NCBI GenBank assembly: GCA_963922205.1
Contig: CAWUHX010000224.1
Location: 434,001 to 498,000, forward strand
Source: Romanomermis culicivorax
Taxonomy: Eukaryota > Nematoda > Enoplea > Mermithida > Mermithidae
Direction of reading: 5' to 3'
DNA: 64,000 nucleotides
The first letter of the stretch is position 1, and every line of letters starts with the position of its first letter. The notes below the pieces were generated by a model, which worked only from the letters and a program-made list of their open reading frames with translations, was not told the origin of the DNA and did no database searches. Shown piece by piece: positions 22,235-60,125 of the stretch. The position numbers and the translations under genes were made by a program.

Positions 22235-22276
22235 AGTACTCTGCGTTGATACCACTGCTTAATCTGATAGAGTGTG
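22235..22276 (-). other. Library primer and 16-base tag (artefact), left of gap
   Basis: 22235-22260 is the reverse complement of the 26-base primer beginning AAGCAGTGGTATCAACGCAG, used for SMART cDNA and for amplified low-input long-read genomic libraries. It is followed at 22261-22276 by AATCTGATAGAGTGTG, the complement of the tag on the other side. This is not genomic DNA. Confidence 0.97.
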
Positions 22277-22376
22277 NNNNNNNNNNNNNNNNNNNNNNNN
22301 NNNNNNNNNNNNNNNNNNNNNNNNNNNNNNNNNNNNNNNNNNNNNNNNNNNNNNNNNNNNNNNNNNNNNNNNNNNN
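22277..22376. other. Assembly gap of exactly 100 N
   Basis: A fixed-length run of N, flanked on both sides by untrimmed primer and tag. It marks a scaffold join between two contigs of unknown distance. The missing ACADM exon or exons should lie here. Confidence 0.98.
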
Positions 22377-22418
22377 CACACTCTATCAGATTAAGCAGTG
22401 GTATCAACGCAGAGTACT
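22377..22418 (+). other. 16-base tag and library primer (artefact), right of gap
   Basis: CACACTCTATCAGATT (22377-22392), then the forward primer at 22393-22418. Mirror image of the left side. Genomic sequence resumes at 22419 inside the repeat unit. Confidence 0.97.
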
Positions 22419-22904
22419 AGTCGAAAAGTCTGCTTTTTTGAGAATTTTTCCAAAAATTGCAAATTTTACAAAATTTTTCCAAAAACAAATTTTCGGCGAT
22501 ATTTCGAAGCATATACAAAATTCGCAACTTTTTTTATGAAAAATTTGGATTTTTGACTCAAAATCCTCAGAAAAAACAGAATTTTCCATTTTGCGCGCTG
22601 TTTTTTGGATTTCTTTTTCGAAAAATTTTCAACTTTTTGAAAGAATATTTGAAAAAATTAAAATTTAGAAAAACTGAAAAATTTTTTTTTTCTGAAAAAT
22701 ATATCTGAAAATAATCTAAAATTTGAAATTTTTGGAATAAAATTTTTTTTGGAAATAAATTTTGAAATAAAATTTTTAAAATTTTTGCGAAAATTTGCAA
22801 ATTTTGAAAAAAGTGGAAATTACCAATTTAAGAAAAATTTAAAAAAAATTTGCAAGAATGATTTTTGAAAAAAATTCAAAATAATGTCAAGTTTTTGTTT
22901 TTTG

Positions 22905-23790
22905 TCCAAAACTAAGATTGTTGGGTATCATTCGATTCGTCTCGACGAGACGAACAAAAAACAACGCAGACTTTTTTTTCTAATTTCACTTCCCATCGAC
23001 TTATCATTAAAAATAGGATTTTTTCTAGAAAATTTTTTCTTTTTTTTCCAAAAATTAGCATATTGGGTACGAATGGATAGATCTCGACGAGACAAATCCA
23101 AAAATCTTGATTATATTTTCTAATTTTCATTTTTGATGGAATTATCGACAAAAAACGGTGAAATTCATGATTTTTGATATTTTTTTCATTTTTTAACAAA
23201 ATTTCCATAGAAAATAACTGGGAAAAAATTTTTTTTGAAATTTTCAATTTTTCTGAATTTTCGCTCGGTTTTCTTGAATTTTTCAATAAAATTTGCATAA
23301 AAATTGCAATTTTCAATAATTTTTTTTGAAATTTGCGTTTTTACGAATTTCAGGTCGATTTTCTTAATTTTTTTAATAGAATATCTTTAAAAAATTATTC
23401 AGAAAAAAAATTTTATGAAATTTTTTTTTGTAAATTTTTCTGAATTTTTAGTCGATTTTTTAAAGGGAAGTTTAAGAAAATTTTGCAAAAATGATTTTGG
23501 AAAAAATCAAAAAACTTTAAAACAATCTGAATTTTTTGTTTTTTGTCCAAAATTAAGATTGTTGGGTATCATTCGATTCGTCTCGACGAGACGAACAAAA
23601 AACAACGCAGACTTTTTTTTCTAATTTCACTTCCCATCGACTTATCATTAAAAATAGGATTTTTTCTAGAAAATTTTTTCTTTTTTTTCCAAAAATTAGC
23701 ATATTGGGTACGAATGGATAGATCTCGACGAGACAAATCCAAAAATCTTGATTATATTTTCTAATTTTCATTTTTGATTGAATTATCGAC
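22905..23790. repeat. Pair of elements with TCTCGACGAGA palindromes
   Basis: Two near-identical stretches (about 22905-23130 and 23545-23775). Each contains two palindromic cores: ATTCGTCTCGACGAGACGAAC, about 130 bp upstream of GATAGATCTCGACGAGACAAA. Each core sits behind a TTGGGTA block, so the element itself looks like a duplicated half-unit of about 130 bp. Equivalent pairs occur at about 28530/29180, 34140/34785 and 39775/40425. The peptide-like open frames over them on both strands are by-products of the repeat. Confidence 0.85.
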
Positions 23791-24235
23791 AAAAAACGGT
23801 GAAATTGATGATTTTTGATATTTTTTTCATTTTTTGCAAAATTTTCGTTGTAAATTTTTGAATTTAAAGTGAATTTAATTTTTTTCTAATTTCGAAAAAA
23901 ATGTTGCAAATTCTTTAAAAAATTCTTATCAAATTTTACAAATTTGGAAATCTACAATAAAGAAGTGAAGCAAAATTGACAAATCTAGGAAAAATAAGAA
24001 AAAAATTGAAAAATAATGGAAAGGAATTTTGAAAATTGGACAAAATTTGAAAACTCGAACAAAATTGGAAAGTTTAAAAAATTTGAAAAATTGTCTGAAA
24101 AAACTGAAAAAATTACAAGACTGTTTGCAAAATGGAAAAAAAACTATAAAAATTGAAAGAACATTTTTGGAAAATTCAATTTTTTTTTTAATTTTTCAAT
24201 ATTTTGCTGAAAATCCAACATTTTCTTTAATTTCA

Positions 24236-24455
24236 GTAATCCAGTAAATTTTGAGTTTACAGTAGCTACAGTAAACCACAAATATTTGCATCTACTGTAC
24301 CTACTGATCGAATTTAGATACTGTAATGCAGTGAATTTTGAATTTACTGTGGCTACAGTAAGCCAGAAAAATTTGAACTACTGTACTTGGTAATTGAATT
24401 TAGCTACAGTATAATCTGACAAATTTCGAGTCTACTGTAGCTACAGTAATCCAGT
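24236..24455. repeat. TACTGTAGCTACAGTA palindrome patch
   Basis: Contains several inverted words such as CTACTGTAGCTACAGTA and TACAGTAGCTACAGTAAA spaced about 40-60 bp, as commonly seen in nematode non-coding DNA. Repeated in the other units at about 29868, 35462 and 41100. It lies 320 bp before the penultimate exon. Confidence 0.8.
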
Positions 24456-24774
24456 TTTAAATTGGAAATGAAAATTTTAAATTTTTGCGAATTAAATTTC
24501 AAAAAATTTAATTGAAAATTTAAATTGAAAAATTTAAATTTAAATTCAAATTAATCAATCAAATTGATTTAAATAATTTAAAATTAAAAATTACAATTTT
24601 TTCATTCGAAATATTTTTTTTCCTATTTAAAATGTAATTTGTTTAATTTTTTCAATTTATTTTTTTTTAAATTTTTTCAAATTTTCCTCAAATTTAATTT
24701 TTTCAAATGATTTTTTTTAGATTTAATTTTTTTTTCAATTCATTTTTTTAATTTTTCAAAAAAAAATTTTCTAG

Positions 24775-24962
24775 GCCGTTTCGTTCATGTTGGCCGAAAT
24801 GGCCATGAACGTGGAATTGGCCCGGCTGATGGTCTACCGGGCGGCCTACGAAGCCGATCAGGGTCGAAAGCCCACCTATTTCGCCTCGATCAGCAAAGCA
24901 TTCGCCGGCGACATGGCCAACAAATGCGCCGCCGACGCCGTACAAATATTCGGCGGCAACGG
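24775..24962 (+). CDS. ACADM: ACADM penultimate exon, copy 1
   Basis: Acceptor TTTTCTAG|GCC, 188 bp (62 codons plus two bases), donor AACGG|GTAAAA. It reads [20 protein letters not shown], then [20 protein letters not shown] and [20 protein letters not shown], then GN. This is the C-terminal helical domain of MCAD, which packs in the tetramer and lines the FAD site; the GGNG motif is completed across the next intron. It enters in phase 0, so it would join exon 4 in frame even though about 90 family residues would then be absent. The exon is markedly GC-rich compared with its flanks and appears identical in all four copies. Confidence 0.93.
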
Positions 24963-27231
24963 GTAAAATTCTAAAATTTTAAATTTGAAAAAAATTAAAT
25001 TTTAAAATTTTTTCACAAAAAAATAAATTTTAAAAAAATTTTGAAAAAAATGCTTTGAATATATTGAATTTTGTTTTTGATTAAAATTTTAGAAAAATTG
25101 AATTTATCAATTTTTTCGCAAAAAAAAAATTTATCAATCGCAAAAATCGAAATTTGAAAACATTTTCAGAAAAAATTGTTCATAAAAGTTAAAAGAAAAT
25201 TTTAAATTTGATGAAATCAGTTTTTAAATTTGAAAAAATTGAAAATTTAAAGAAATCAAAAAAATTTGATTTTTTCCCAAAAACTTTTTCTCAGAAAAAA
25301 AATGAAAATTTCACAAAATAATTTCCCATAAAAATGTTAAATATGACATTTCCAGGAAAAAATTTTTTGAATTTAAAGGATTTCTTTTTAAATTCCAAAC
25401 CTTTTTCATTAAAATTTTAAAAAATTTTTAAAGATTTTCTCTGAAAATTCAAGTTGTGAAACTTTTTCCGAAAAAAACATTTGTAAAATTATCAATTTTT
25501 TTGGAAAAAAATTGCAAATTCACGAATAAGTTCGAGAAAAATTTTTCTGAAAAATTCCTTTAAAAAATTGAAAATTTCGAAAAATTTAAAATTTAGAGAA
25601 ATTTCCCAAAGTTATTTTTTTAAAAACTAATTCAGAAAAATTAAAAATTTGAATAAATTTTCCAAAATTTCCAAAAATTTCCAAAAATATATTTTTCAAA
25701 ATTTTTTTCTCGAAAAAAATTGAAAAATTATCAGGTTTATAAATTTATTCAATTAAAAATTTGAAGAAAAATTCAAGAAAAATTCTTCTGAAAAATTTCT
25801 TTTAAAAATTTGAAATTTGAAGAAGCTTTCCGTAACAATACAAAATGTGAAATTTTTTCGAAAAATTCCAAAATCCGAAAATTGGAAATTCTTCAAAAAA
25901 GTTTAAAATTTAGAAAAATTAAAAAAAAATGCTTTATAATGCAAAAAGACTGGAAATCTTAAAAATACATTCAAAAAAGTTGAAGATTTGAAAAAAATTT
26001 TAATAAAAACCTAAAATTTGAAATTTCTCGCGAAAAAATTGAAACTCGAATTCAAAAAAAATTTTTTTCAAAAATTTATCTAAAAATAATCTGAAATTTG
26101 ACAAAATATCAAGTTTATAAATTTATTTAAGAAAAAAATTTTAAATTCAGAACAAATTTTCACAAACTATTTTTCTCGAGAATTTTCTTGAAAATAATTT
26201 AAAAATCCAGACAAAAGTTCCGGAAAAATTCTTTTTTTTTTCAAAAAAGTTTTTCAAAAAAAATTTATTTTCAAAATTTATTCAAAAATCTAAAATTTAT
26301 AAAATATCAAGTTTGTAAGTTCGATTGAAAATGATTATTTTCAACAATTTTCCTTTTTTTGGAATTTTTGTATACAATTTTGAGTTTTCTGAATTTTTGG
26401 TTCAATTTCTTCATTTTTTTCAACAAAATTTTCTTAGAAAATAATAATTTCCAGTAATTTTTAGTTTATTTTATTTGAAATTTTTTTGTAACATTATTTT
26501 TCTTAATTTTTTCGACGAAATTTCTATAAAAATGAGAATTTTTAATGATTTTAATTTTGGGTTTCTTGAAATTTTTTATGAAATTTTCTTTTTTGTTAAT
26601 TTTTTCAACAGAATTTCCACAAAAATTGTAATTTTTAATGATTTATTTTTCTCCTTTGAAATTTTTTTTGTGAAGTTTTCATTTTACAGAATTTTTCCAA
26701 CAAAATTTCGATAAAAATTGAGAATTTTTAACAATTCTAATTTCTATTTTTTGAAATTTTTTATTGTAAAATTTTAATTTTTCTGAATTTTTGATCGATT
26801 TTCTTCATTTTTTCCAGAAAGTTTCCATGAAAAATGAGAATTTTCAATAATTTTTTTTGCACTTTTGTGGAAAATTTTCATTTTTCTTCATTTTTTCAAC
26901 AAAATTTCCATAAAAATGACAATTTCCAATAAATTTCTTTTTTTTTAAATTTGTTTTTGTAAAATGTCAATTTTTCCGAATTTTCGTTTGTTAATTTTTC
27001 CACAAAATTTCTATAAAAAATTATTCAGAAAAAAAATTTTTTTTTTGTAAAATTCTAATATTCCGGAATTTTCGGTCGATTTTCTCTATTTTTTAAAAAA
27101 AGAAAAAAGGATGATTATTTTTTTGAAAAAAATTATCATTTTTGTCGAAATTTTGTTTTTTTTCTGATTTTTTTTATTTATTTTTTTTTTGAATTTTTTT
27201 CTAAAATTTTTTTAAAATTTTTTTTGTGCAG
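24963..27231 (+). repeat. Last ACADM intron, copy 1 (2269 bp), AT-rich
   Basis: Low-complexity A/T words in its first half and 'tttttcaacaaaatttccataaaaatga' blocks in its second half, ending in TTTTTTGTGCAG. Corresponding introns are 30596-32843, 36197-38461 and 41847-44113. Copy 2 lacks the 'aaatttatcaatcg' insert seen in copies 1, 3 and 4. No other gene is seen. Confidence 0.8.
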
Positions 27232-27373
27232 GTTCAATTCGGAATATCCGGTAGAAAAATTGATGCGGGACGCGAAAATTTTCCAAATTTACGAAGGCAC
27301 GTCCCAAATTCAACGCGTCATCATTTCACGTTTATTATTGGCCAAAGCTAAGGAATCGGGCGGTTTAGCTTGA
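27232..27373 (+). CDS. ACADM: ACADM terminal exon, copy 1
   Basis: Acceptor TTTTTTGTGCAG|GTTCAATTC; it completes the Gly of GGNGF and ends in TGA. It reads [20 protein letters not shown], then [20 protein letters not shown] and ESGGLA. The Glu of IYEGTSQ is the catalytic base of the medium-chain enzymes, so this exon is indispensable. The penultimate and terminal exons together give 109 residues. With exons 1-4 the visible protein is 331 residues, about 90 short of vertebrate MCAD. This copy uses CGG for the Arg of LMRD; the other three use CGA. Confidence 0.93.
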
Positions 27374-27453
27374 AATTTTTTTCGAATTTCATGACCAATC
27401 TAAAAAAAAGTCTTCCATTCATGACATTTTTAGGCTTTCATGCGCTGGGAAAA

Positions 27454-27497
27454 TGACGTCATACCGTGGGAAAATTAAATTTTCCTTGCTGACGTCA
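27454..27497. promoter_or_regulatory. Two TGACGTCA palindromes after the ACADM stop
   Basis: Perfect CRE-type palindromes at 27454-27461 and 27490-27497. The pair is kept in the other three units and, with sequence drift, in the inverted relic (2768-2775 and 2733-2740). A bZIP-binding role is only a possibility; no promoter is evident. Confidence 0.4.
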
Positions 27498-27600
27498 AAA
27501 AATTAATTTTTCTCCTTGCTGTAAAATTTACAATATTTTAGTTCTTTCTATATGCATTTTAATGTTCAAGTATATATTATATTGCTCAATATATTTATTT

Positions 27601-27606
27601 AATAAA
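27601..27606 (+). terminator. Candidate polyadenylation signal, ACADM copy 1
   Basis: AATAAA about 230 bases after the TGA, in the flank conserved in all units. Equivalents are at 33212-33217, 38843-38848 and 44504-44509, so every unit could end a transcript. Confidence 0.55.
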
Positions 27607-30407
27607 ATTTGGAATATGGAATTTTTAATTTGAGAGAATGTTTAATTTAAAAAAAACTTAATTTTTCACTAAAAATTCGAAATTTGATGTAAAAAAAAAG
27701 AGGACTTTTTAATTCATAAATTTTTGAAGTCGTTTTGAAAAATTCAAAATTTTCACTTTTCTATAGGAATTTTGTTTTTTATCAAAAATTCAAATTTCAT
27801 TCAAAAATCTAGAATTTTTTTTCAAAAATTTCGAAATTCTGATTTTTTTCAAATGTTGCAATTTTTCCGTCAAAAAATTGTTTCTTTTCAAGTTTTCCTT
27901 GAAAAATTAAAATTCGATTCGAAAATTGGAAAATTGCGTTTTTTTAGATTTTGTGAAAAATTCCAATTTATAAAAAAAAATTGTAAATTTTTCTAGGTTT
28001 TTCGTTGACAAAAATGAAAAATCCGTTTCGAAAAAGTCGAAAAGTCTGCTTTTTTGAGAATTTTTCCAAAAATTGCAAATTTTCGAATTTTTCCAAAAAC
28101 AAATTTTCGGCGATATTTCGAAGCATATACAAAATTCGCAACTTTTTTTATGAAAAATTTGGATTTTTGACTCAAAATCCTCAGAAAAAACAGAATTTTC
28201 CATTTTGCGCGCTGTTTTTTGGATTTCTTTTTCGAAAAATTTTCAACTTTTTGAAAGAATATTTGAAAAAATTAAAATTTAGAAAAACTGAAAAAATTTT
28301 TTTTTCTGAAAAATATATCTGAAAATAATCTAAAATTTGAAATTTTTGGAATAAAATTTTTTTTGGAAATAAATTTTGAAATAAAATTTCTAAAATTTTT
28401 GCGAAAATTTGCAAATTTTGAAAAAAGTGGAAATTACCAATTTAAGAAAAATTTAAAAAAAATTTGCAAAAATGATTTTGGAAAAAATCAAAAAACTTTA
28501 AAACAATCTGAATTTTTTGTTTTTTGTCCAAAACTAAGATTGTTGGGTATCATTCGATTCGTCTCGACGAGACGAACAAAAAACAACGCAGACTTTTTTT
28601 TCTAATTTCACTTCCCATCGACTTATCATTAAAAATAGGATTTTTTCTAGAAAATTTTTTCTTTTTTTTCCAAAAATTAGCATATTGGGTACGAATGGAT
28701 AGATCTCGACGAGACAAATCCAAAAATCTTGATTATATTTTCTAATTTTCATTTTTGATGGAATTATCGACAAAAAACTGTGGAATTGATGATTTTTGAT
28801 ATTTTTTTCATTTTTTAACAAAATTTCCATAGAAAATAACTGGGAAAAAATTTTTTTTGAAATTTTCAATTTTTCTGAATTTTCGCTCGGTTTTCTTGAA
28901 TTTTTCAATAAAATTTGCATAAAAATTGCAATTTTCAATAATTTTTTTTGAAATTTGCGTTTTTACGAATTTCAGGTCGATTTTCTTAATTTTTTTAATA
29001 GAATATCTTTAAAAAATTATTCAGAAAAAAAATTTTATGAAATTTTTTTTTGTAAATTTTTCTGAATTTTTAGTCGATTTTTTAAAGGGAAGTTTAAGAA
29101 AATTTTGCAAAAATGATTTTGGAAAAAAATCGAAAAACTTTAAAACAATCTGAATTTTTTGTTTTTTATCCAAAATTAAGATTGTTGGGTATCATTCGAT
29201 TCGTCTCGACGAGACGAACAAAAAACAACGCAGACTTTTTTTTCTAATTTCACTTCCCATCGACTTATCATTAAAAATAGGATTTTTTCTAGAAAATTTT
29301 TTCTTTTTTTTCCAAAAATTAGCATATTGGGTACGAATGGATAGATCTCGACGAGACAAATCCAAAAATCTTGATTATATTTTCTAATTTTCATTTTTGA
29401 TTGAATTATCGACAAAAAACGGTGAAATTGATGATTTTTGATATTTTTTTCATTTTTTGCAAAATTTTCGTTGTAAATTTTTGAATTTAAAGTGAATTTA
29501 ATTTTTTTCTAATTTCGAAAAAAATGTTGCAAATTCTTTAAAAAATTCTTATCAAATTTTACAAATTTGGAAATCTACAATAAAGAAGTGAAGCAAAATT
29601 GACAAATCTAGGAAAAATAAGAAAAAAATTGAAAAATAATGGAAAGGAATTTTGAAAATTGGACAAAATTTGAAAACTCGAACAAAATTGGAAAGTTTAA
29701 AAAATTTGAAAAATTGTCTGAAAAAACTGAAAAAATTACAAGACTGTTTGCAAAATGGAAAAAAAACTATAAAAATTGAAAGAACATTTTTGGAAAATTC
29801 AATTTTTTTTTTAATTTTTCAATATTTTGCTGAAAATCCAACATTTTCTTTAATTTCAGTAATCCAGTAAATTTTGAGTTTACAGTAGCTACAGTAAACC
29901 ACAAATATTTGCATCTACTGTACCTACTGATCGAATTTAGATACTGTAATGCAGTGAATTTTGAATTTACTGTGGCTACAGTAAGCCACAAAAATTTGAA
30001 CTACTGTACTTGGTAATTGAATTTAGCTACAGTATAATCTGACAAATTTCGAGTCTACTGTAGCTACAGTAATCCAGTTTTAAATTGGAAATGAAAATTT
30101 TAAATTTTTGCGAATTAAATTTCAAAAAATTTAATTGAAAATTTAAATTGAAAAATTTAAATTCAAATTAAAATTAATTAATCAAATTGATTTAAATAAT
30201 TTAAAATTAAAAATTACAATTTTTTTATTCGAAATGTTTACTTTGAAATGTTTTTTTTATTTGAAATGTAATTTGTTTAAATTTTTGACTTTTTCAAATT
30301 TAAATTTTTTCAAATTTTCCTCAAATTTAATTTTTTCAAATGATTTTTTTTAGATTTAATTTTTTTTTCAATTCATTTTTTTAATTTTTCAAAAAAAAAT
30401 TTTCTAG

Positions 30408-30595
30408 GCCGTTTCGTTCATGTTGGCCGAAATGGCCATGAACGTGGAATTGGCCCGGCTGATGGTCTACCGGGCGGCCTACGAAGCCGATCAGGGTCGA
30501 AAGCCCACCTATTTCGCCTCGATCAGCAAAGCATTCGCCGGCGACATGGCCAACAAATGCGCCGCCGACGCCGTACAAATATTCGGCGGCAACGG
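30408..30595 (+). CDS. ACADM: ACADM penultimate exon, copy 2
   Basis: 188 bp with intact acceptor TTTCTAG and donor GTAAAA. I see no base difference from copy 1. Upstream of it there is no copy of exons 1-4 or of the missing middle exon, only the 3' flank of copy 1, so on its own this pair cannot encode an enzyme. It could serve only as an alternative 3' end for transcripts that start at 9135. Confidence 0.9.
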
Positions 30596-32843
30596 GTAAA
30601 ATTCTAAAATTTTAAATTTGAAAAAAATTAAATTTTAAAATTTTTTCACAAAAAATAAATTTTAAAAAAATTTTGAAAAAAATGCTTTGAATATATTGAA
30701 TTTTGTTTTTGATTAAAATTTTAGAAAAATTGAATTTATCAATTTTTTCGCAAAAATCGAAATTTGAAAACATTTTCAGAAAAAATTGTTCATAAAACTT
30801 GAAATAAAATTGCAAATTTGATGAAATCAGTTTTTAAATTTGAAAAAATTGAAAATTTAAAGAAATCAAAAAAATTTGATTTTTTTTCACAAACTTTTTC
30901 TCAGAAAAAAAATGAAAATTTCACAAAATAATTTCCCATAAAAATGTTAAATATGACATTTCCAGAAAAAAAATTTTTGAATTTAAAGGATTTCTTTTTA
31001 AATTCCAAACTTTTTTCATTAAAATTTTAAAAAATTTTTAAAGATTTTCTCTGAAAATTCAAGTTGTGAAACTTTTTCCGAAAAAAAACATTTGTAAAAT
31101 TATCAATTTGCAAATTTTTTTGGAAAAAAAATTGCAAATTCACGAATAAGTTCGAGAAAAATTTTTCTGAAAAATTCCTTTAAAAAATTGAAAATTTCGA
31201 AAAATTTAAAATTTAGAGAAATTTCCCAAAGTTATTTTTTTAAAAACTAATTCAGAAAAATTAAAAATTTGAATAAATTTTCCAAAATTTCCAAAAATTT
31301 CCAAAAATATATTTTTCAAAATTTTTTTCTCGAAAAAAATTGAAAAATTATCAGGTTTATAAATTTATTCAATTAAAAATTTGAAGAAAAATTCAAGAAA
31401 AATTCTTCTGAAAAATTTCTTTTAAAAATTTGAAATTTGAAGAAGCTTTCCGTAACAATACAAAATGTGAAATTTTTTCGAAAAATTCCAAAATCCGAAA
31501 ATTGGAAATTCTTCAAAAAAGTTTAAAATTTAGAAAAATTAAAAAAAAATGCTTTATAATGCAAAAAGACTGGAAATCTTAAAAATACATTCAAAAAAGT
31601 TGAAGATTTGAAAAAAATTTTAATAAAAACCTAAAATTTGAAATTTCTCGCGAAAAAATTGAAACTCGAATTCAAAAAAAATTTTTTTCAAAAATTTATC
31701 TAAAAATAATCTGAAATTTGACAAAATATCAAGTTTATAAATTTATTTAAGAAAAAAATTTTAAATTCAGAACAAATTTTCACAAACTATTTTTCTCGAG
31801 AATTTTCTTGAAAATAATTTAAAAATCCAGACAAAAGTTCCGGAAAAATTCTTTTTTTTTTCAAAAAAGTTTTTCAAAAAAAATTTATTTTCAAAATTTA
31901 TTCAAAAATCTAAAATTTATAAAATATCAAGTTTGTAAGTTCGATTGAAAATGATTATTTTCAACAATTTTCCTTTTTTTGGAATTTTTGTATACAATTT
32001 TGAGTTTTCTGAATTTTTGGTTCAATTTCTTCATTTTTTTAACAAAATTTTCTTAGAAAATAATAATTTCCAGTAATTTTTAGTTTATTTTATTTGAAAT
32101 TTTTTTGTAACATTATTTTTCTTAATTTTTTCGACGAAATTTCTATAAAAATGAGAATTTTTAATGATTTTAATTTTGGGTTTCTTGAAATTTTTTATGA
32201 AATTTTCTTTTTTGTTAATTTTTTCAACAGAATTTCCACAAAAATTGTAATTTTTAATGATTTATTTTTCTCCTTTGAAATTTTTTTTGTGAAGTTTTCA
32301 TTTTACAGAATTTTTCCAACAAAATTTCGATAAAAATTGAGAATTTTTAACAATTCTAATTTCTATTTTTTGAAATTTTTTATTGTAAAATTTTAATTTT
32401 TCTGAATTTTTGATCGATTTTCTTCATTTTTTCCAGAAAGTTTCCATGAAAAATGAGAATTTTCAATAATTTTTTTTGCACTTTTGTGGAAAATTTTCAT
32501 TTTTCTTCATTTTTTCAACAAAATTTCCATAAAAATGACAATTTCCAATAAATTTCATTTTTTGAAATTTGTTTTTGTAAAATGTCAATTTTTCCGAATT
32601 TTCGTTTGTTAATTTTTCCACAAAATTTCTATAAAAAATTATTCAGAAAAAAATTTTTTTTTTGTAAAATTCTAATATTCCGGAATTTTCGGTCGATTTT
32701 CTCTATTTTTTAAAAAAAGAAAAAAGGATGATTATTTTGAAAAAAATTATCATTTTTGTCGAAATTTTGTTTTTTTTCTGATTTTTTTTATTTATTTTTT
32801 TTAGAATTTTTTCTAAAATTTTTTTAAAATTTTTTTTGTGCAG

Positions 32844-32985
32844 GTTCAATTCGGAATATCCGGTAGAAAAATTGATGCGAGACGCGAAAATTTTCCAAAT
32901 TTACGAAGGCACGTCCCAAATTCAACGCGTCATCATTTCACGTTTATTATTGGCCAAAGCTAAGGAATCGGGCGGTTTAGCTTGA
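32844..32985 (+). CDS. ACADM: ACADM terminal exon, copy 2
   Basis: 142 bp, intact acceptor, same 47-residue reading as copy 1 including the catalytic Glu, TGA stop. One synonymous change from copy 1 (CGA for the Arg of LMRD). Confidence 0.9.
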
Positions 32986-33211
32986 AATTTTTTTCGAATT
33001 TCATGACCAATCTAAAAAAAAGTCTTCCATTCATGACATTTTTAGGCTTTCATGCGATGGGAAAATGACGTCATACCGTGGGAAAATTAAATTTTCCTTG
33101 CTGACGTCAAAAAATTAATTTTTCCCTTGCTGTAAAATTTACAATATTTTAGTTCTTTCTATATGCATTTTAATGTTCAAGTATATATTATATTGCTCAA
33201 TATATTTATTT

Positions 33212-33217
33212 AATAAA
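33212..33217 (+). terminator. Candidate polyadenylation signal, copy 2
   Basis: AATAAA in the conserved flank, about 227 bases after the stop. Confidence 0.5.
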
Positions 33218-36008
33218 ATTTGGAATATGGAATTTTTAATTTGAGAGAATCTTTAATTTAAAAAAAACTTAATTTTTCCCTAAAAATTCGAAATTTGATG
33301 TAAAAAATGGACTTTTTAATTCATAAATTTTTGAAGTCGTTTTGAAAAATTCAAAATTTTCACTTTTCTATAAGAATTTTGTTTTTTATCAAAAATTCAA
33401 ATTTCATTCAAAAATCTAGAATTTTTTTTCAAAAATTTCGAAATTCTGATTTTTTTCAAATGTTGCAATTTTTCCGTCAAAAAATTGTTTCTTTTCAAGT
33501 TTTCCTTGAAAAATTAAAATTCGATTCGAAAATTGGAAAATTGCGTTTTTTTAGATTTTGTGAAAAATTCCAATTTATAAAAAAAAATTGTAAATTTTTC
33601 TAGGTTTTTCGTTGACAAAAATGAAAAATCCGTTTCGAAAAAGTCGAAAAGTCTGCTTTTTTGAGAATTTTTCCAAAAATTGCAAATTTTCGAATTTTTC
33701 CAAAAACAAATTTTCGGCGATATTTCGAAGCATATACAAAATTCGCAACTTTTTTTATGAAAAATTTGGATTTTTGACTCAAAATCCTCAGAAAAAACAG
33801 AATTTTCCATTTTGCGCGCTGTTTTTTGGATTTCTTTTTCGAAAAATTTTCAACTTTTTGAAAGAATATTTGAAAAAATTAAAATTTAGAAAAACTGAAA
33901 AAATTTTTTTTTCTGAAAAATATATCTGAAAATAATCTAAAATTTGAAATTTTTGGAATAAAATTTTTTTTGGAAATAAATTTTGAAATAAAATTTCTAA
34001 AATTTTTGCGAAAATTTGCAAATTTTGAAAAAAGTGGAAATTACCAATTTAAGAAAAATTTAAAAAAAATTTGCAAAAATGATTTTTTGAAAAAAATTCA
34101 AAATAATGTCAAGTTTTTGTTTTTTGTCCAAAACTAAGATTGTTGGGTATCATTCGATTCGTCTCGACGAGACGAACAAAAAACAACGCAGACTTTTTTT
34201 TCTAATTTCACTTCCCATCGACTTATCATTAAAAATAGGATTTTTTCTAGAAAATTTTTTCTTTTTTTTCCAAAAATTAGCATATTGGGTACGAATGGAT
34301 AGATCTCGACGAGACAAATCCAAAAATCTTGATTATATTTTCTAATTTTCATTTTTGATGGAATTATCGACAAAAAACTGTGGAATTGATGATTTTTGAT
34401 ATTTTTTTCATTTTTTAACAAAATTTCCATAGAAAATAACTGGGAAAAAATTTTTTTTGAAATTTTCAATTTTTCTGAATTTTCGCTCGGTTTTCTTGAA
34501 TTTTTCAATAAAATTTGCATAAAAATTGCAATTTTCAATAATTTTTTTTGAAATTTGCGTTTTTACGAATTTCAGGTCGATTTTCTTAATTTTTTTAATA
34601 GAATATCTTTAAAAAATTATTCAGAAAAAAAATTTTATGAAATTTTTTTTTGTAAATTTTTCTGAATTTTTAGTCGATTTTTTAAAGGGAAGTTTAAGAA
34701 AATTTTGCAAAAATGATTTTGGAAAAAAATCGAAAAACTTTAAAACAATCTGAATTTTTTGTTTTTTATCCAAAATTAAGATTGTTGGGTATCATTCGAT
34801 TCGTCTCGACGAGACGAACAAAAAACAACGCAGACTTTTTTTTCTAATTTCACTTCCCATCGACTTATCATTAAAAATAGGATTTTTTCTAGAAAATTTT
34901 TTCTTTTTTTTCCAAAAATTAGCATATTGGGTACGAATGGATAGATCTCGACGAGACAAATCCAAAAATCTTGATTATATTTTCTAATTTTCATTTTTGA
35001 TTGAATTATCGACAAAAAACGGTGAAATTGATGATTTTTGATATTTTTTTCATTTTTTGCAAAATTTTCGTTGTAAATTTTTGAATTTAAAGTGAATTTA
35101 ATTTTTTTCTAATTTCGAAAAAAATGTTGCAAATTCTTTAAAAAATTCTTATCAAATTTTACAAATTTGGAAATCTACAATAAAGAAGTGAAGCAAAATT
35201 GACAAATCTAGGAAAAATAAGAAAAAAATTGAAAAATAATGGAAAGGAATTTTGAAAATTGGACAAAATTTGAAAACTCGAACAAAATTGGAAAGTTTAA
35301 AAAATTTGAAAAATTGTCTGAAAAAACTGAAAAAATTACAAGACTGTTTGCAAAATGGAAAAAAAACTATAAAAATTGAAAGAACATTTTTGGAAAATTC
35401 AATTTTTTTTTTAATTTTTCAATATTTTGCTGAAAATCCAACATTTTCTTTAATTTCAGTAATCCAGTAAATTTTGAGTTTACAGTAGCTACAGTAAACC
35501 ACAAATATTTGCATCTACTGTACCTACTGATCGAATTTAGATACTGTAATGCAGTGAATTTTGAATTTACTGTGGCTACAGTAAGCCACAAAAATTTGAA
35601 TCTGTTGTACCTGATAATTAAATTTAGCTACAGTATAATCTGACAAATTTCGAGTCTACTGTAGCTACAGTAATCCAGTTTTAAATTGGAAATGAAAATT
35701 TTGAATTTTTGCGAATTAAATTTCAAAAAATTTAATTGAAAATTTAAATTGAAAAATTTAAATTCAAATTAAAATTAATTAATCAAATTGATTTAAATAA
35801 TTTAAAATTAAAAATTACAATTTTTTTATTCGAAATGTTTACTTTGAAATGTTTTTTTTATTTGAAATGTAATTTGTTTAAATTTTTGACTTTTTCAAAT
35901 TTAAATTTTTTCAAATTTTCCTCAAATTTAATTTTTTCAAATGATTTTTTTTAGATTTAATTTTTTTTTCAATTTATTTTTTTAATTTTTCAAAAAAAAA
36001 TTTTCTAG

Positions 36009-36196
36009 GCCGTTTCGTTCATGTTGGCCGAAATGGCCATGAACGTGGAATTGGCCCGGCTGATGGTCTACCGGGCGGCCTACGAAGCCGATCAGGGTCG
36101 AAAGCCCACCTATTTCGCCTCGATCAGCAAAGCATTCGCCGGCGACATGGCCAACAAATGCGCCGCCGACGCCGTACAAATATTCGGCGGCAACGG
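36009..36196 (+). CDS. ACADM: ACADM penultimate exon, copy 3
   Basis: 188 bp, splice sites intact, appears identical to the other copies. It lacks upstream exons of its own, as in copy 2. Confidence 0.9.
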
Positions 36197-38461
36197 GTAA
36201 AATTCTAAAATTTTAAATTTGAAAAAAATTAAATTTTAAAATTTTTTCACAAAAAAATAAATTTTAAAAAAATTTTGAAAAAAATGCTTTGAATATATTG
36301 AATTTTGTTTTTGATTAAAATTTTAGAAAAATTGAATTTATCAATTTTTTCGCAAAAAAAAAATTTATCAATCGCAAAAATCGAAATTTGAAAACATTTT
36401 CAGAAAAAATTGTTCATAAAAGTTAAAAGAAAATTTTAAATTTGATGAAATCAGTTTTTAAATTTGAAAAAATTGAAAATTTAAAGAAATCAAAAAAATT
36501 TGATTTTTTCCCAAAAACTTTTTCTCAGAAAAAAAATGAAAATTTCACAAAATAATTTCCCATAAAAATGTTAAATATGACATTTCCAGGAAAAAATTTT
36601 TGAATTTAAAGGATTTCTTTTTAAATTCCAAACCTTTTTCATTAAAATTTTAAAAAATTTTTAAAGATTTTCTCTGAAAATTCAAGTTGTGAAACTTTTT
36701 CCGAAAAAAACATTTGTAAAATTATCAATTTTTTTGGAAAAAAATTGCAAATTCACGAATAAGTTCGAGAAAAATTTTTCTGAAAAATTCCTTTAAAAAA
36801 TTGAAAATTTCGAAAAATTTAAAATTTAGAGAAATTTCCCAAAGTTATTTTTTTAAAAACTAATTCAGAAAAATTAAAAATTTGAATAAATTTTCCAAAA
36901 TTTCCAAAAATTTCCAAAAATATATTTTTCAAAATTTTTTTCTCGAAAAAAATTGAAAAATTATCAGGTTTATAAATTTATTCAATTAAAAATTTGAAGA
37001 AAAATTCAAGAAAAATTCTTCTGAAAAATTTCTTTTAAAAATTTGAAATTTGAAGAAGCTTTCCGTAACAATACAAAATGTGAAATTTTTTCGAAAAATT
37101 CCAAAATCCGAAAATTGGAAATTCTTCAAAAAAGTTTAAAATTTAGAAAAATTAAAAAAAAATGCTTTATAATGCAAAAAGACTGGAAATCTTAAAAATA
37201 CATTCAAAAAAGTTGAAGATTTGAAAAAAATTTTAATAAAAACCTAAAATTTGAAATTTCTCGCGAAAAAATTGAAACTCGAATTCAAAAAAAATTTTTT
37301 TCAAAAATTTATCTAAAAATAATCTGAAATTTGACAAAATATCAAGTTTATAAATTTATTTAAGAAAAAAATTTTAAATTCAGAACAAATTTTCACAAAC
37401 TATTTTTCTCGAGAATTTTCTTGAAAATAATTTAAAAATCCAGACAAAAGTTCCGGAAAAATTCTTTTTTTTTCAAAAAAGTTTTTCAAAAAAAATTTAT
37501 TTTCAAAATTTATTCAAAAATCTAAAATTTATAAAATATCAAGTTTGTAAGTTCGATTGAAAATGATTATTTTCAACAATTTTCCTTTTTTTGGAATTTT
37601 TGTATACAATTTTGAGTTTTCTGAATTTTTGGTTCAATTTCTTCATTTTTTTAACAAAATTTTCTTAGAAAATAATAATTTCCAGTAATTTTTAATTTAT
37701 TTTATTTGAAATTTTTTTGTAACATTATTTTTCTTAATTTTTTCGACGAAATTTCTATAAAAATGAGAATTTTTAATGATTTTAATTTTGGGTTTCTTGA
37801 AATTTTTTATGAAATTTTCTTTTTTGTTAATTTTTTCAACAGAATTTCCACAAAAATTGTAATTTTTAATGATTTATTTTTCTCCTTTGAAATTTTTTTT
37901 GTGAAGTTTTCATTTTACAGAATTTTTCCAACAAAATTTCGATAAAAATTGAGAATTTTTAACAATTCTAATTTCTATTTTTTGAAATTTTTTATTGTAA
38001 AATTTTAATTTTTCTGAATTTTTGATCGATTTTCTTCATTTTTTCCAGAAAGTTTCCATGAAAAATGAGAATTTTCAATAATTTTTTTTGCACTTTTGTG
38101 GAAAATTTTCATTTTTCTTCATTTTTTCAACAAAATTTCCATAAAAATGACAATTTCCAATAAATTTCATTTTTTGAAATTTGTTTTTGTAAAATGTCAA
38201 TTTTTCCGAATTTTCGTTTGTTAATTTTTCCACAAAATTTCTATAAAAAATTATTCGAGAAAAAAAATTTTTTTTGTAAAATTCTAATATTCCGGAATTT
38301 TTGGTCGATTTTCTCCATTTTTTTAAAAAAAGAAAAAAGGATGATTATTTTTTTGGAAAAAAATACAATTTTTGTTTAAATTTTGTTTTTTTTTCTGATT
38401 TTTTTTATTTATTTTTTTTTTGAATTTTTTTCTAAAATTTTTTTTCAATTTTTTTGTGCAG

Positions 38462-38603
38462 GTTCAATTCGGAATATCCGGTAGAAAAATTGATGCGAGA
38501 CGCGAAAATTTTCCAAATTTACGAAGGCACGTCCCAAATTCAACGCGTCATCATTTCACGTTTATTATTGGCCAAAGCTAAGGAATCGGGCGGTTTAGCT
38601 TAA
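38462..38603 (+). CDS. ACADM: ACADM terminal exon, copy 3
   Basis: 142 bp, GTGCAG acceptor, same protein reading with the catalytic Glu, but the stop is TAA instead of TGA and is followed by a short insert shared with copy 4. The stop-codon change is silent for the protein. Confidence 0.9.
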
Positions 38604-38842
38604 AATTTGGATCATGGATTTTTTTCGAATTTCATGACCAATCTAAAAAAAAGTCTTCCATTCATGACATTTTTAGGCTTTCATGCGATGGGAAAATGAC
38701 GTCATACCGTGGGAAAATTAAATTTTCCTTGCTGACGTCAAAAAATTAATTTTTCCCTTGCTGTAAAATTTACAATATTTTAGTTCTTTCTATATGCATT
38801 TTAATGTTCAAGTATATATTATATTGCTCAATATATTTATTT

Positions 38843-38848
38843 AATAAA
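38843..38848 (+). terminator. Candidate polyadenylation signal, copy 3
   Basis: AATAAA in the conserved flank, about 240 bases after the stop. Confidence 0.5.
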
Positions 38849-41658
38849 ATTTGGAATATAGAATTTTTAATTTGAGAGAATGTTTAATTTAAAAAAAACT
38901 TAATTTTTCCCTAAAAATTCGAAATTTGATGTAAAAAATGGACTTTTTAATTCATAAATTTTTGAAGTCGTTTTGAAAAATTCAAAATTTTCACTTTTCT
39001 ATAAGAATTTTGTTTTTTATCAAAAATTCAAATTTCATTCAAAAATCTAGAATTTTTTTTCAAAAATTTCGAAATTCTGATTTTTTTCAAATGTTGCAAT
39101 TTTTCCGTCAAAAAATTGTTTCTTTTCAAGTTTTCCTTGAAAAATTAAAATTCGATTCGAAAATTGGAAAATTGCGTTTTTTTAGATTTTGTGAAAAATT
39201 CCAATTTATAAAAAAAAATTGTAAATTTTTCTAGGTTTTTCGTTGACAAAAATGAAAAATCCGTTTCGAAAAAGTCGAAAAGTCTGCTTTTTTGAGAATT
39301 TTTCCAAAAATTGCAAATTTTCGAATTTTTCCAAAAACAAATTTTCGGCGATATTTCAAAACATATACAAAATTCGCAACTTTTTTTATGAAAAATTTGG
39401 ATTTTTGACTCAAAATCCTCAGAAAAAACAGAATTTTCCATTTTGCGCGCTGTTTTTTGGATTTCTTTTTCGAAAAATTTTCAACTTTTTGAAAGAATAT
39501 TTGAAAAAATTAAAATTTAGAAAAACTGAAAAAATTTTTTTTTCTGAAAAATATATCTGAAAATAATCTAAAATTTGAAATTTTTGGAATAAAATTTTTT
39601 TTGGAAATAAATTTTGAAATAAAATTTCTAAAATTTTTGCGAAAATTTGCAAATTTTGAAAAAAGTGGAAATTACCAATTTAAGAAAAATTTAAAAAAAA
39701 TTTGCAAAAATGATTTTGGAAAAAATCAAAAAACTTTAAAACAATCTGAATTTTTTGTTTTTTGTCCAAAACTAAGATTGTTGGGTATCATTCGATTCGT
39801 CTCGACGAGACGAACAAAAAACAACGCAGACTTTTTTTTCTAATTTCACTTCCCATCGACTTATCATTAAAAATAGGATTTTTTCTAGAAAATTTTTTCT
39901 TTTTTTTCCAAAAATTAGCATATTGGGTACGAATGGATAGATCTCGACGAGACAAATCCAAAAATCTTGATTATATTTTCTAATTTTCATTTTTGATGGA
40001 ATTATCGACAAAAAACTGTGGAATTGATGATTTTTGATATTTTTTTCATTTTTTAACAAAATTTCCATAGAAAATAACTGGGAAAAAATTTTTTTTGAAA
40101 TTTTCAATTTTTCTGAATTTTCGCTCGGTTTTCTTGAATTTTTCAATAAAATTTGCATAAAAATTGCAATTTTCAATAATTTTTTTTGAAATTTGCGTTT
40201 TTACGAATTTCAGGTCGATTTTCTTAATTTTTTTAATAGAATATCTTTAAAAAATTATTCAGAAAAAAAATTTTATGAAATTTTTTTTTGTAAATTTTTC
40301 TGAATTTTTAGTCGATTTTTTAAAGGGAAGTTTAAGAAAATTTTGCAAAAATGATTTTGGAAAAAAATCGAAAAACTTTAAAACAATCTGAATTTTTTGT
40401 TTTTTATCCAAAATTAAGATTGTTGGGTATCATTCGATTCGTCTCGACGAGACGAACAAAAAACAACGCAGACTTTTTTTTCTAATTTCACTTCCCATCG
40501 ACTTATCATTAAAAATAGGATTTTTTCTAGAAAATTTTTTCTTTTTTTTCCAAAAATTAGCATATTGGGTACGAATGGATAGATCTCGACGAGACAAATC
40601 CAAAAATCTTGATTATATTTTCTAATTTTCATTTTTGATTGAATTATCGACAAAAAACGGTGAAATTGATGATTTTTGATATTTTTTTCATTTTTTGCAA
40701 AATTTTCGTTGTAAATTTTTGAATTTAAAGTGAATTTAATTTTTTTCTAATTTCGAAAAAAATGTTGCAAATTCTTTAAAAAATTCTTATCAAATTTTAC
40801 AAATTTGGAAATCTACAATAAAGAAGTGAAGCAAAATTGACAAATCTAGGAAAAATAAGAAAAAAATTGAAAAATAATGGAAAGGAATTTTGAAAATTGG
40901 ACAAAATTTGAAAACTCGAACAAAATTGGAAAGTTTAAAAAATTTGAAAAATTGTCTGAAAAAACTGAAAAAATTACAAGACTGTTTGCAAAATGGAAAA
41001 AAAACTATAAAAATTGAAAGAACATTTTTGGAAAATTCAATTTTTTTTTTAATTTTTCAATATTTTGCTGAAAATCCAACATTTTCTTTAATTTCAGTAA
41101 TCCAGTAAATTTTGAGTTTACAGTAGCTACAGTAAACCACAAATATTTGCATCTACTGTACCTACTGATCGAATTTAGATACTGTAATGCAGTGAATTTT
41201 GAATTTACTGTGGCTACAGTAAGCCAGAAAAATTTGAACTACTGTACTTGGTAATTGAATTTAGCTACAGTATAATCTGACAAATTTCGAGTCTACTGTA
41301 GCTACAGTAATCCAGTTTTAAATTGGAAATGAAAATTTTAAATTTTTGCGAATTAAATTTCAAAAAATTTAATTGAAAATTTAAATTGAAAAATTTAAAT
41401 TTAAATTCAAATTAATCAATCAAATTGATTTAAATAATTTAAAATTAAAAATTACAATTTTTTCATTCGAAATATTTTTTTTCCTATTTAAAATGTAATT
41501 TGTTTAATTTTTTCAATTTATTTTTTTTTAAATTTTTGACTTTTTCAAATTTAAATTTTTTCAAATTTTCCTCAAATTTAATTTTTTCAAATGATTTTTT
41601 TTAGATTTAATTTTTTTTTCAATTCATTTTTTTAATTTTTCAAAAAAAAATTTTCTAG

Positions 41659-41846
41659 GCCGTTTCGTTCATGTTGGCCGAAATGGCCATGAACGTGGAA
41701 TTGGCCCGGCTGATGGTCTACCGGGCGGCCTACGAAGCCGATCAGGGTCGAAAGCCCACCTATTTCGCCTCGATCAGCAAAGCATTCGCCGGCGACATGG
41801 CCAACAAATGCGCCGCCGACGCCGTACAAATATTCGGCGGCAACGG
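41659..41846 (+). CDS. ACADM: ACADM penultimate exon, copy 4
   Basis: 188 bp, splice sites intact, appears identical to the other copies. It may be the ancestral 3' end of the gene, since its downstream side leads out of the array, but nothing in the exon itself shows which copy is original. Confidence 0.9.
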
Positions 41847-44113
41847 GTAAAATTCTAAAATTTTAAATTTGAAAAAAATTAAATTTTAAAATTTTTTCAC
41901 AAAAAAATAAATTTTAAAAAAATTTTGAAAAAAATGCTTTGAATATATTGAATTTTGTTTTTGATTAAAATTTTAGAAAAATTGAATTTATCAATTTTTT
42001 CGCAAAAAAAAAATTTATCAATCGCAAAAATCGAAATTTGAAAACATTTTCAGAAAAAATTGTTCATAAAAGTTAAAAGAAAATTTTAAATTTGATGAAA
42101 TCAGTTTTTAAATTTGAAAAAATTGAAAATTTAAAGAAATCAAAAAAATTTGATTTTTTCCCAAAAACTTTTTCTCAGAAAAAAAATGAAAATTTCACAA
42201 AATAATTTCCCATAAAAATGTTAAATATGACATTTCCAGGAAAAAATTTTTTGAATTTAAAGGATTTCTTTTTAAATTCCAAACCTTTTTCATTAAAATT
42301 TTAAAAAATTTTTAAAGATTTTCTCTGAAAATTCAAGTTGTGAAACTTTTTTCCGAAAAAAACATTTGTAAAATTATCAATTTTTTTGGAAAAAAATTGC
42401 AAATTCACGAATAAGTTCGAGAAAAATTTTTCTGAAAAATTCCTTTAAAAAATTGAAAATTTCGAAAAATTTAAAATTTAGAGAAATTTCCCAAAGTTAT
42501 TTTTTTAAAAACTAATTCAGAAAAATTAAAAATTTGAATAAATTTTCCAAAATTTCCAAAAATTTCCAAAAATATATTTTTCAAAATTTTTTTCTCGAAA
42601 AAAATTGAAAAATTATCAGGTTTATAAATTTATTCAATTAAAAATTTGAAGAAAAATTCAAGAAAAATTCTTCTGAAAAATTTCTTTTAAAAATTTGAAA
42701 TTTGAAGAAGCTTTCCGTAACAATACAAAATGTGAAATTTTTTCGAAAAATTCCAAAATCCGAAAATTGGAAATTCTTCAAAAAAGTTTAAAATTTAGAA
42801 AAATTAAAAAAAAATGCTTTATAATGCAAAAAGACTGGAAATCTTAAAAATACATTCAAAAAAGTTGAAGATTTGAAAAAAATTTTAATAAAAACCTAAA
42901 ATTTGAAATTTCTCGCGAAAAAATTGAAACTCGAATTCAAAAAAAATTTTTTTCAAAAATTTATCTAAAAATAATCTGAAATTTGACAAAATATCAAGTT
43001 TATAAATTTATTTAAGAAAAAAATTTTAAATTCAGAACAAATTTTCACAAACTATTTTTCTCGAGAATTTTCTTGAAAATAATTTAAAAATCCAGACAAA
43101 AGTTCCGGAAAAATTCTTTTTTTTTTCAAAAAAGTTTTTCAAAAAAAATTTATTTTCAAAATTTATTCAAAAATCTAAAATTTATAAAATATCAAGTTTG
43201 TAAGTTCGATTGAAAATGATTATTTTCAACAATTTTCCTTTTTTTGGAATTTTTGTATACAATTTTGAGTTTTCTGAATTTTTGGTTCAATTTCTTCATT
43301 TTTTTCAACAAAATTTTCTTAGAAAATAATAATTTCCAGTAATTTTTAGTTTATTTTATTTGAAATTTTTTTGTAACATTATTTTTCTTAATTTTTTCGA
43401 CGAAATTTCTATAAAAATGAGAATTTTTAATGATTTTAATTTTGGGTTTCTTGAAATTTTTTATGAAATTTTCTTTTTTGTTAATTTTTTCAACAGAATT
43501 TCCACAAAAATTGTAATTTTTAATGATTTATTTTTCTCCTTTGAAATTTTTTTTTGTAAAATTTTCATTTTACAGAATTTTTCCAACAAAATTTCCATAA
43601 AAATTGAGAATTTTTAACAATTCTAATTTATATTTTTTGAAATTTTTTATTGTAAAATTTCAATTTTTCCGAATTTTCGATCTATTTTCTTCATTTTTTC
43701 AAGAAAGTTTCCATGAAAAATGAGAATTTTCAATAATTTTTTTTGCACTTTTGTGGAAAATTTTCATTTTTCTTCATTTTTTCAACAAAATTTCCATAAA
43801 AATGACAATTTCCAATAAATTTCTTTTTTTTTAAATTTGTTTTTGTCAAATGTTAATTTTTCCCAATTTTTGTTTGTTAATTTTTCCACAAAATTTCTAT
43901 AAAAAATTATTCAGAAAAAAATTTTTTTTTTGTAAAATTCTAATATTCCGGAATTTTCGGTCGATTTTCTCTATTTTTTAAAAAAAGAAAAAAGGATGAT
44001 TATTTTGGAAAAAATTACAATTTTTGTCGAAATTTTGTTTTTTTCTGATTTTTTTTATTTATTTTTTTTTTGAATTTTTTTCTAAAATTTTTTTTAAAAT
44101 TTTTTTTGTGCAG

Positions 44114-44255
44114 GTTCAATTCGGAATATCCGGTAGAAAAATTGATGCGAGACGCGAAAATTTTCCAAATTTACGAAGGCACGTCCCAAATTCAACGCGT
44201 CATCATTTCACGTTTATTATTGGCCAAAGCTAAGGAATCGGGCGGTTTAGCTTAA
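44114..44255 (+). CDS. ACADM: ACADM terminal exon, copy 4
   Basis: 142 bp, GTGCAG acceptor, same 47-residue reading, TAA stop. The flank after it carries a private insert ('aaaatatgcattctag') absent from copies 1-3. Confidence 0.9.
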
Positions 44256-44503
44256 AATTTGGATCATGGATTTTTTCAAATTTCATGACCAAAATATGCA
44301 TTCTAGAAAAAAGTCTTCCATTCATGACATTTTTAGGCTTTCATGCGCTGGGAAAATGACGTCATACCGTGGGAAAATTAAATTTTCCTTGCTGACGTCA
44401 AAAAATTAATTTTTCTCCTTGCTGTAAAATTTACAATATTTTAGTTCTTTCTATATGCATTTTAATGTTCAAGTATATATTATATTGCTCAATATATTTA
44501 TTT

Positions 44504-44509
44504 AATAAA
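44504..44509 (+). terminator. Candidate polyadenylation signal, copy 4
   Basis: AATAAA about 250 bases after the stop, in the conserved flank. Confidence 0.5.
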
Positions 44510-44559
44510 ATTTGGAATATAGAATTTTTAATTTGAGAGAATGTTTAATTTAAAAAAAC

Positions 44560-45523
44560 AACCCAATTTTTCTTTTAAAATTCGAAATTTTGTTCTCAAA
44601 AATACCAATTTTGTGAGAAAAAAAATTGGATTTTTACTTCAAAAAGTAGAATTTTGATCTAAATAAATTCGACTTTTCAACTCAAATTTTTGAAATCGTG
44701 TCGAAAAATTCAAAATTTCCACTTTTCTATAGGAATTTTTTCTCAAAAATTCAAATTTTTCTGTCGGAAATTGGAATTCAATTTATGAAATTTTTTTTTA
44801 TAAATTTTCCTGAATTTTTAGTCGATTTTTTAAAGGGAAGTTTAAGAAAATTTAGCAAAAATTCAAAATAACTTTTCAAAAAGTTTAAAACGATCTGAAT
44901 TTTTAGTTTTTTATCCAAAACTAAGCTTGTTGGTTATCATTCGATTCGTCTTGACGAGACGAACAAAAAACAACCCAGACTTTTTTTTCTAATTTCACTT
45001 CCCATCGAGTTATCAACAAAAAAGCGATTCTTTTTTAGAAAATTTTTTCTTTTTTCTCCAAAAATTAGCATATTGGGTTATATATGGATAGATCTCGACG
45101 AGACGAACCCAAAAATCATAATTATATTTTCTAATTTTCATTTTTGATGGAATGATCGACAAAAAACTGTGAAATTCATGATTTTTGATATTTTTTTCAT
45201 TTTTTGCAAAATTTTCGTTGTAAATTTTTGAATTTTTTACGTATTTCCAAATTTAAAGTAATTTTTAATTTTTTCCTAAATTCGAAAAAAATGTTGCAAG
45301 TTTTTTTAAAAAATTTTTATCGGATTTTACAAATTTCGAAATCTAGTGAAGCAAAATTGAAAAATCTAGAAAAAGTAATAAAAAAAATTTAAAAATGGAA
45401 AAGAATTTCGAAAATATTGGACAAAATTTGAAAACTCGAACAAAATTGGAAATTTTGAAAAATTGGAAAAATTGTCTGAAAAATCTGAAAAAATTACAAG
45501 ACTGTTTGCAAAATGGAAAAAAC
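44560..45523 (+). repeat. Partial, diverged fifth unit with one TCTCGACGAGA element
   Basis: After a diverged spacer, from about 44788 the sequence rejoins the unit at the point equivalent to 29038 ('agtcgattttttaaagggaa') and follows it through one palindrome element (about 44925-45150, with a TCTTGACGAGA variant) to 'ctgtttgcaaaatggaaaaa' at 45520, where it stops abruptly. The unit's next segment is absent here. No gene is seen. Confidence 0.8.
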
Positions 45524-57720: not shown

Positions 57721-57721
57721 A

Positions 57722-60040: not shown

Positions 60041-60125
60041 AAAAAAATTTACAGTAGAGCATGTCAACAAACACAGACCCTAATAGTATCCCACTGTTGA
60101 CCCTGGCGTTATCAGCACTATCAAC

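Follow-up and report, generated by a model that had tools for sequence, protein, structure and literature searches.

A probable partial tandem duplication of the 3' end of ACADM in Romanomermis culicivorax, assembled as four head-to-tail copies

Alternative last exons are several terminal exons, each with its own poly(A) signal, that stand behind a single 5' part of a gene, and they usually encode different C termini. In Caenorhabditis elegans mutation-accumulation lines, 63% of detectable spontaneous gene duplications were partial, in the summary given by one review (PMC3449122). For the largest duplicon pair of the same species, unequal crossing-over between flanking transposons has been proposed, and overall, tandem duplicons were associated with transposons no more than expected by chance (p = 0.56), as set out in PMC2728738. 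The locus described here, in the mermithid nematode R. culicivorax, most likely belongs to partial tandem gene duplication, a class that is well known and frequent: copies of the end of ACADM, lacking part of the parental coding sequence, lie next to one adjacent source in the same orientation.

The window, by which we mean the whole 64-kb stretch of DNA analyzed, comprises positions 434001-498000 of C224 in an assembly of 359 Mb and 595 contigs. The 5' part of the gene consists of four exons; the tblastn query used for them was a human MCAD sequence.

9135-9251, plus strand: ACADM exon 1, with the start codon and N terminus (reading frame, donor GTAAGA)
9428-9662, plus strand: ACADM exon 2 (PF02771 at C224:443425-443661; tblastn, E=1.5e-23)
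10856-11020, plus strand: ACADM exon 3 (tblastn, E=1.2e-22)
20688-20836, plus strand: ACADM exon 4, ending in phase 0 (tblastn, E=1.5e-19; PF02770 positions 22-73)

Spliced together, these exons specify 222 residues; they end in phase 0, the phase in which the repeated exon pair, a match to PF00441, begins. The gene is identified as MCAD by its match to human MCAD (2a1t, E=9.7e-132) and by the top six of the 58 listed sequences, all of which are MCAD. A piece of a gene of the transthyretin-like (TTR-52) family, which is typical of nematodes, lies at 8703-8936; the family has 38 matches in the assembly.

The earlier note had described four tandem units of 5616, 5607 and 5631 bp plus a fourth, each ending the gene with the same two exons, and BLAST self-comparison reproduced them exactly from starts at 22419, 28035, 33642 and 39273.

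22419-28034, plus strand: array unit 1, 5616 bp (arbitrary left edge, fixed by where the contig starts)
28035-33641, plus strand: array unit 2, 5607 bp
33642-39272, plus strand: array unit 3, 5631 bp
39273-44590, plus strand: array unit 4, as far as high identity reaches (about 44590)
24775-24962, plus strand: penultimate exon, copy 1
30408-30595, plus strand: penultimate exon, copy 2
36009-36196, plus strand: penultimate exon, copy 3
41659-41846, plus strand: penultimate exon, copy 4
27232-27373, plus strand: last exon, coding part and stop TGA, copy 1
32844-32985, plus strand: last exon, coding part and stop TGA, copy 2
38462-38603, plus strand: last exon, coding part and stop TAA, copy 3
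44114-44255, plus strand: last exon, coding part and stop TAA, copy 4

The units stand head to tail and are 97.87-97.97% identical, gaps counted, over 5.3-16.6 kb. Each carries, at the positions given before, an intact penultimate exon, an intact last exon and an AATAAA after it (27601, 33212, 38843 and 44504), and the 109 residues encoded by the pair are, as had been held, identical in all four. In every unit the penultimate exon (188 bp) is the same letter for letter, as are the 25 bases preceding it and its donor. In the last exon two coding positions vary, one of them synonymous and the other in the stop codon, TGA in units 1 and 2 and TAA in units 3 and 4; the adjoining 3' UTR also differs between these two pairs of units. 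GTGCAG precedes the last exon in all four copies, unit 3 diverging further upstream, and the predicted acceptor, the frame, the stop and the poly(A) signal are those of an alternative-last-exon layout, intact in four of four units. Among the best-scoring candidates in the assembly, the only full copies of the penultimate exon are the four of the array, the two other matches being weak (49 and 53 bases), and the last-exon region has four copies and one degenerate inverted copy. Units 2-4 carry the exon pair alone, and the upstream side of unit 1 falls in a gap; the single set of exons 1-4 (9135-20836) lies 5' of the array in the same window and scaffold, across that gap.

22236-22276, minus strand: untrimmed library adapter and 16-base tag, end of the left contig
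22277-22376, no strand: 100-N gap at the contig break, presumed site of about 88 missing codons and of the left edge of the array
22377-22418, plus strand: untrimmed 16-base tag and library adapter, start of the right contig

The adapter AAGCAGTGGTATCAACGCAGAGTAC, which we take to be of the SMARTer type, flanks the gap with its 16-base tag on both sides. The assembly holds 562 exact copies of it (255 forward, 307 reverse), the reversed control yielded none, and all 12 adapter loci that were inspected lay at an N run or a contig end. The array starts at the adapter because the right contig starts there, and the caution that had been attached to this coincidence was well placed: with a contig break at the start of the array, the number four is provisional and the left edge is unseen. 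In the PiMmS study of nematodes, DNA was amplified by long-range PCR ahead of HiFi sequencing; gaps were blamed on PCR dropouts and the read N50 was 9.6-11.1 kb (PMC10682056). The adapters named there are other than those of this assembly and the study serves as an analogy only, by which reads of 9.6-11.1 kb could link neighboring units of the array.

HMMER aligned the gene to human MCAD (2a1t) as two segments, covering chain residues 34-240 and 308-418; since both run slightly beyond their ends, they share query positions 211-233. With limits set by eye on 2a1t, residue 228 is the last of exon 4 and residue 318 the first of the pair, leaving human residues 229-317, about 88 codons, without a counterpart between them; tblastn with the human MCAD query gave the same limits. 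The assumption that exon 4 is joined to the repeated pair therefore fails: with so many codons missing between the two, exon 4 is not the expected donor. No credible tblastn match to the missing segment was found within the 64-kb window, array included. Profile searches of the assembly (E up to 10), in which the missing stretch corresponds to PF00441 up to about position 51 and PF02770 from about position 74, recognized no orphan ACADM middle piece, although a short or split exon could evade such searches. Matches over that stretch fell on C13, C45, C97, C148, C424 and C488, each of which, by our own grouping, holds other acyl-CoA dehydrogenase pieces nearby. On C61 there is one weak, stop-ridden match that covers a different profile stretch. 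Since the codons are absent from the window and the profile searches of the assembly turned up no stray copy of them, they most likely sit in the adapter-flanked 100-N gap. Neither a complete ACADM elsewhere in the assembly nor a second ACADM-like gene was found; the exon pair, exon 2 and exon 4 were each found as ACADM on this scaffold alone, which fits both contigs being one gene.

Across the four units, 97 of 5182 ungapped columns vary, and any two units differ by 48-58 substitutions (0.92-1.11%) and 13-17 indel events. The differences fall in 32 clusters, between invariant stretches of up to 820 bp. Private sites are evenly spread (19, 16, 19 and 19 in units 1-4), and shared sites, grouped in few tracts, back all three pairings of the units (12, 7 and 5 sites). 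A block of the first internal repeat in units 2 and 4 carries the sequence of unit 1's second internal repeat, a conversion-like tract. The variation is a mosaic, as would be expected of exchange between copies. With mosaic differences of about 1%, the units are not one sequence repeated; a single molecule copied repeatedly in the library was ruled out on this ground.

Remnants of related sequence lie on both sides of the array.

2537-2844, minus strand: degenerate inverted copy of the last exon and 3' flank, the catalytic-Glu part absent
44618-45522, plus strand: diverged unit-like pieces, 80% (3'-flank piece) and 86% (intron piece), without exon match
51262-55773, plus strand: diverged pieces of the unit's upstream intron, 82-91%, without exon match

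The inverted copy shows an older duplication of the same ACADM end that has since decayed. The pieces at 44618-45522 may be the remnant of a further unit or a partly independent copy of a dispersed repeat, and those at 51262-55773 may survive from older units or represent independent copies of that repeat; independent origin enters because most of the right-hand pieces fall in the dispersed-repeat part of the unit.

We consider it probable that the locus is a partial tandem duplication of ACADM, expanded to about four copies (as assembled) and homogenized by unequal exchange or gene conversion. The mosaic units, the decayed inverted last exon and three other repeat arrays of about 5 kb, described below, count in its favor. 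The duplicated segment would measure about 5.6 kb, with one end in the intron that precedes the penultimate exon and the other about 0.3 kb beyond the stop codon, its copies lying head to tail. The first duplication would most likely have come about by unequal exchange between repeats in the intron and repeats downstream of the gene, and further unequal exchange or gene conversion would have expanded the array and evened it to about four copies, perhaps aided by the unit-internal repeats and by AT-rich repetitive DNA at the unit ends. A promoter-driven transcript would be spliced from the missing segment to the first exon pair and polyadenylated there; we expect the first pair to be the one in use because of the established order of co-transcriptional splicing and poly(A) choice. 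The downstream pairs would be redundant, reached only by read-through or exon skipping and yielding the same protein.

It is rather unlikely, by our assessment, that the assembly is inflated, with fewer units per chromosome (two, for example) and with alleles or PCR-derived reads strung into four. The library is adapter-tagged, with adapters at contig ends, and was probably PCR amplified; the stretches around junctions 2 and 3 are nearly identical; and the difference of about 1% between units is at the level of C97/C424, a likely allelic or recent duplicate pair that differs by about 0.95%, which counts against certainty in the duplication. A two-by-two mixture of alleles, however, predicts two close pairs, whereas all six pairs of units are about equally distant, a star that would also fit several alleles, that is, four or more. 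A truly single-copy locus would be expected to yield no junction sequence, and other arrays are present in the assembly. Adapter words of 12-15 bases were absent from the window outside the gap region, which likewise speaks against inflation. An adapter chimera within the array was rejected on the same observation.

The other arrays came to light through a repeat inside the unit.

29153-29468, plus strand: dispersed repeat, present twice in each unit at a spacing of 641-642 bp

This 316-bp intronic repeat has at least 49 matches in the assembly, at no fewer than ten places by our grouping (40 of 102 candidates scored in both cases). Copies are spaced 4.5-6.1 kb apart at seven of those ten places, the ACADM array included. 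From the six others with spaced copies, L059, L060 and L061 were picked for their repeat spacing, and all three proved to hold direct arrays with periods of about 4.9-5.6 kb: 5042 bp at 100% identity in L059, about 5.4-5.6 kb at 97-100% in L060 and about 4.9 kb at 92% in L061. The L060 unit has a frame that matches DUF19 and, below the cut-off, CPG4; the frames of the L061 unit matched no family above the cut-off, and the L059 unit has only short frames in the composition-filtered list. The repeat was absent from six arbitrary 10-kb control stretches, but two of six such stretches also hold a direct repeat (at least 500 bp, 85% identity), and the association of arrays with the repeat is therefore only suggestive. 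In a scan for inverted repeats around the dispersed repeat, the arms were mostly AT-rich. Another acyl-CoA dehydrogenase, on C97, has two 5' parts 6.9 kb apart, 99.5% identical over 3.2 kb, and one 3' part was found.

A more general reading would be that the dispersed repeat drives serial head-to-tail amplification of its neighbors in steps of about 5 kb, repeatedly arraying gene fragments, and that the spare exon pairs then perhaps serve as alternative 3' ends or, via trans-splicing, yield a short C-terminal fragment. We regard this as a doubtful conjecture; were the repeat truly the driver, it would provide a handle on the origin of partial gene duplicates in nematodes.

The proposal that the gene has four interchangeable 3' ends held in part. 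The splice and poly(A) signals are equivalent across the units, which thus offer equivalent predicted 3' ends, and a choice among them would not alter the protein. The coding sequence of the array is, on the other hand, no better conserved than non-coding DNA picked at random: 2 of 329 coding columns vary, and when pairs of non-coding windows of matching lengths are drawn at random, 34% of the draws show two variable columns or fewer (P = 0.34), the mean being 6.4. Since 34% of draws are equally low, the intact exons can be explained by recency and homogenization alone, and purifying selection on the four pairs is unsupported; as a point against a functional reading this result is weak, because four young copies carry little information. 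That the four pairs are kept as a cassette of alternative 3' ends, with different UTRs and the same protein, is very improbable in our judgment, even with splice sites, frame and AATAAA intact in all units and with a stop codon and 3' UTR that divide units 1-2 from units 3-4, given how ordinary two variable sites are and that the older copy of the ACADM end upstream no longer has an intact coding sequence. It is simpler to read the array as a by-product of local duplication, because that upstream copy decayed and because the other arrays of about 5 kb carry other genes or none.

It is similarly far-fetched that the AT-rich, CpG-rich DNA at 1-44 kb and the remainder of the contig stem from two organisms and were wrongly joined. 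Composition might argue for this: at 1-44 kb GC is mostly 0.18-0.26, rising to 0.35 at 8-12 kb, and the CpG observed/expected ratio is 1.26-2.65, whereas the two values are 0.32-0.39 and 0.37-0.79 at 46-50 and 58-64 kb, and 0.37-0.47 and 0.73-1.11 in six control stretches. Against it stand the lack of a second ACADM-like gene in the assembly searches, the unit-like AT-rich pieces that recur at 52-56 kb amid the other composition, and the third-position GC of the ACADM exons (0.44-0.77), which overlaps that of eight plus-strand acyl-CoA dehydrogenase stretches elsewhere (0.35-0.58), two exons being higher.

On the partial-duplication reading, the locus shows that a gene of core metabolism can have several spare 3' ends while its protein stays the same; a decayed copy of that end lies nearby. 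Gene models built from this assembly may show ACADM broken or mis-spliced, because the unit count, the left edge of the array and probably an exon were lost at the adapter-flanked break.

Among papers surveyed by title (partial duplication, last exons, alternative polyadenylation, nematode terminal exons), no array of identical gene tails was found. The locus resembles alternative last exons in having several predicted terminal exons behind one 5' part, and departs from them in that the four copies encode the same residues. As with the partial gene duplicates of the Katju and Lynch class, in the terms in which that review defines it (PMC3449122), the copies are incomplete, recent and derived from one parental gene, here in tandem; unlike that class as it is outlined there, about four homogenized copies of the 3' part are present and the parent's own 3' end lies inside the array. 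The duplicons of C. elegans are listed as pairs in PMC2728738, whereas here four assembled units of 5.6 kb cut one gene, and the edges of the ACADM array are without a known transposon, in contrast to the transposon-flanked largest pair reported in that study. With the tandem segmental duplications of C. elegans, as that study describes their arrangement (PMC2728738), the array shares the head-to-tail order of its duplicons.

Degenerate tandem repeat, with a unit of about 31 bp, fills nearly all of the ACADM intron that separates exon 3 from exon 4, and includes 314-bp higher-order copies at 92% (window 18818-20647). This repeat is listed here with other features of the window and of three other contigs of the assembly (C97, C424, and C451).

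Window 11057-20656: degenerate tandem repeat, ACADM intron, exon 3 to exon 4
Window 48526-50967 and 58565-61078: two copies of one block, reading frame on the minus strand
Window 57704-58585, plus strand: open frame of 293 residues
C451:1-10000, start of contig: tandem array (L059)
C424 and C97: shared gene (L019/L020 and L031/L032)
C97:835491, 842388, and 865901-867025: parts of an acyl-CoA dehydrogenase gene (L021, L022, and L030)

Base composition shifts sharply near 45 kb inside the one contig. A composition scan found low GC and CpG above expectation in window 1-44000, whereas in window 46000-64000 GC was higher and CpG often below expectation, except at 52-56 kb, where the composition of the left side recurs. 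Six arbitrary stretches of the assembly were similar in composition to the right side.

The block copies are about 92% alike, are separated by about 10.1 kb, and each contain a 10-bp tandem repeat. Their reading frames encode 216 or 212 residues. In Pfam searches no family passed the cut-off with the first frame, the second gave none at E 0.01, and the 293-residue frame had no match.

The C451 array has a period of 5042 bp, and the 4958 bp that were compared are 100% identical. The gene common to C424 and C97 is about 99.05% identical across two 3.2-kb stretches; a second haplotype left unpurged, or else a recent duplication, probably accounts for this. In the C97 acyl-CoA dehydrogenase gene, which is not ACADM, the 5' part is present as two nearly identical copies separated by 6.9 kb, and the 3' part was found only once, mirroring the ACADM array, in which it is the 3' end that is repeated.
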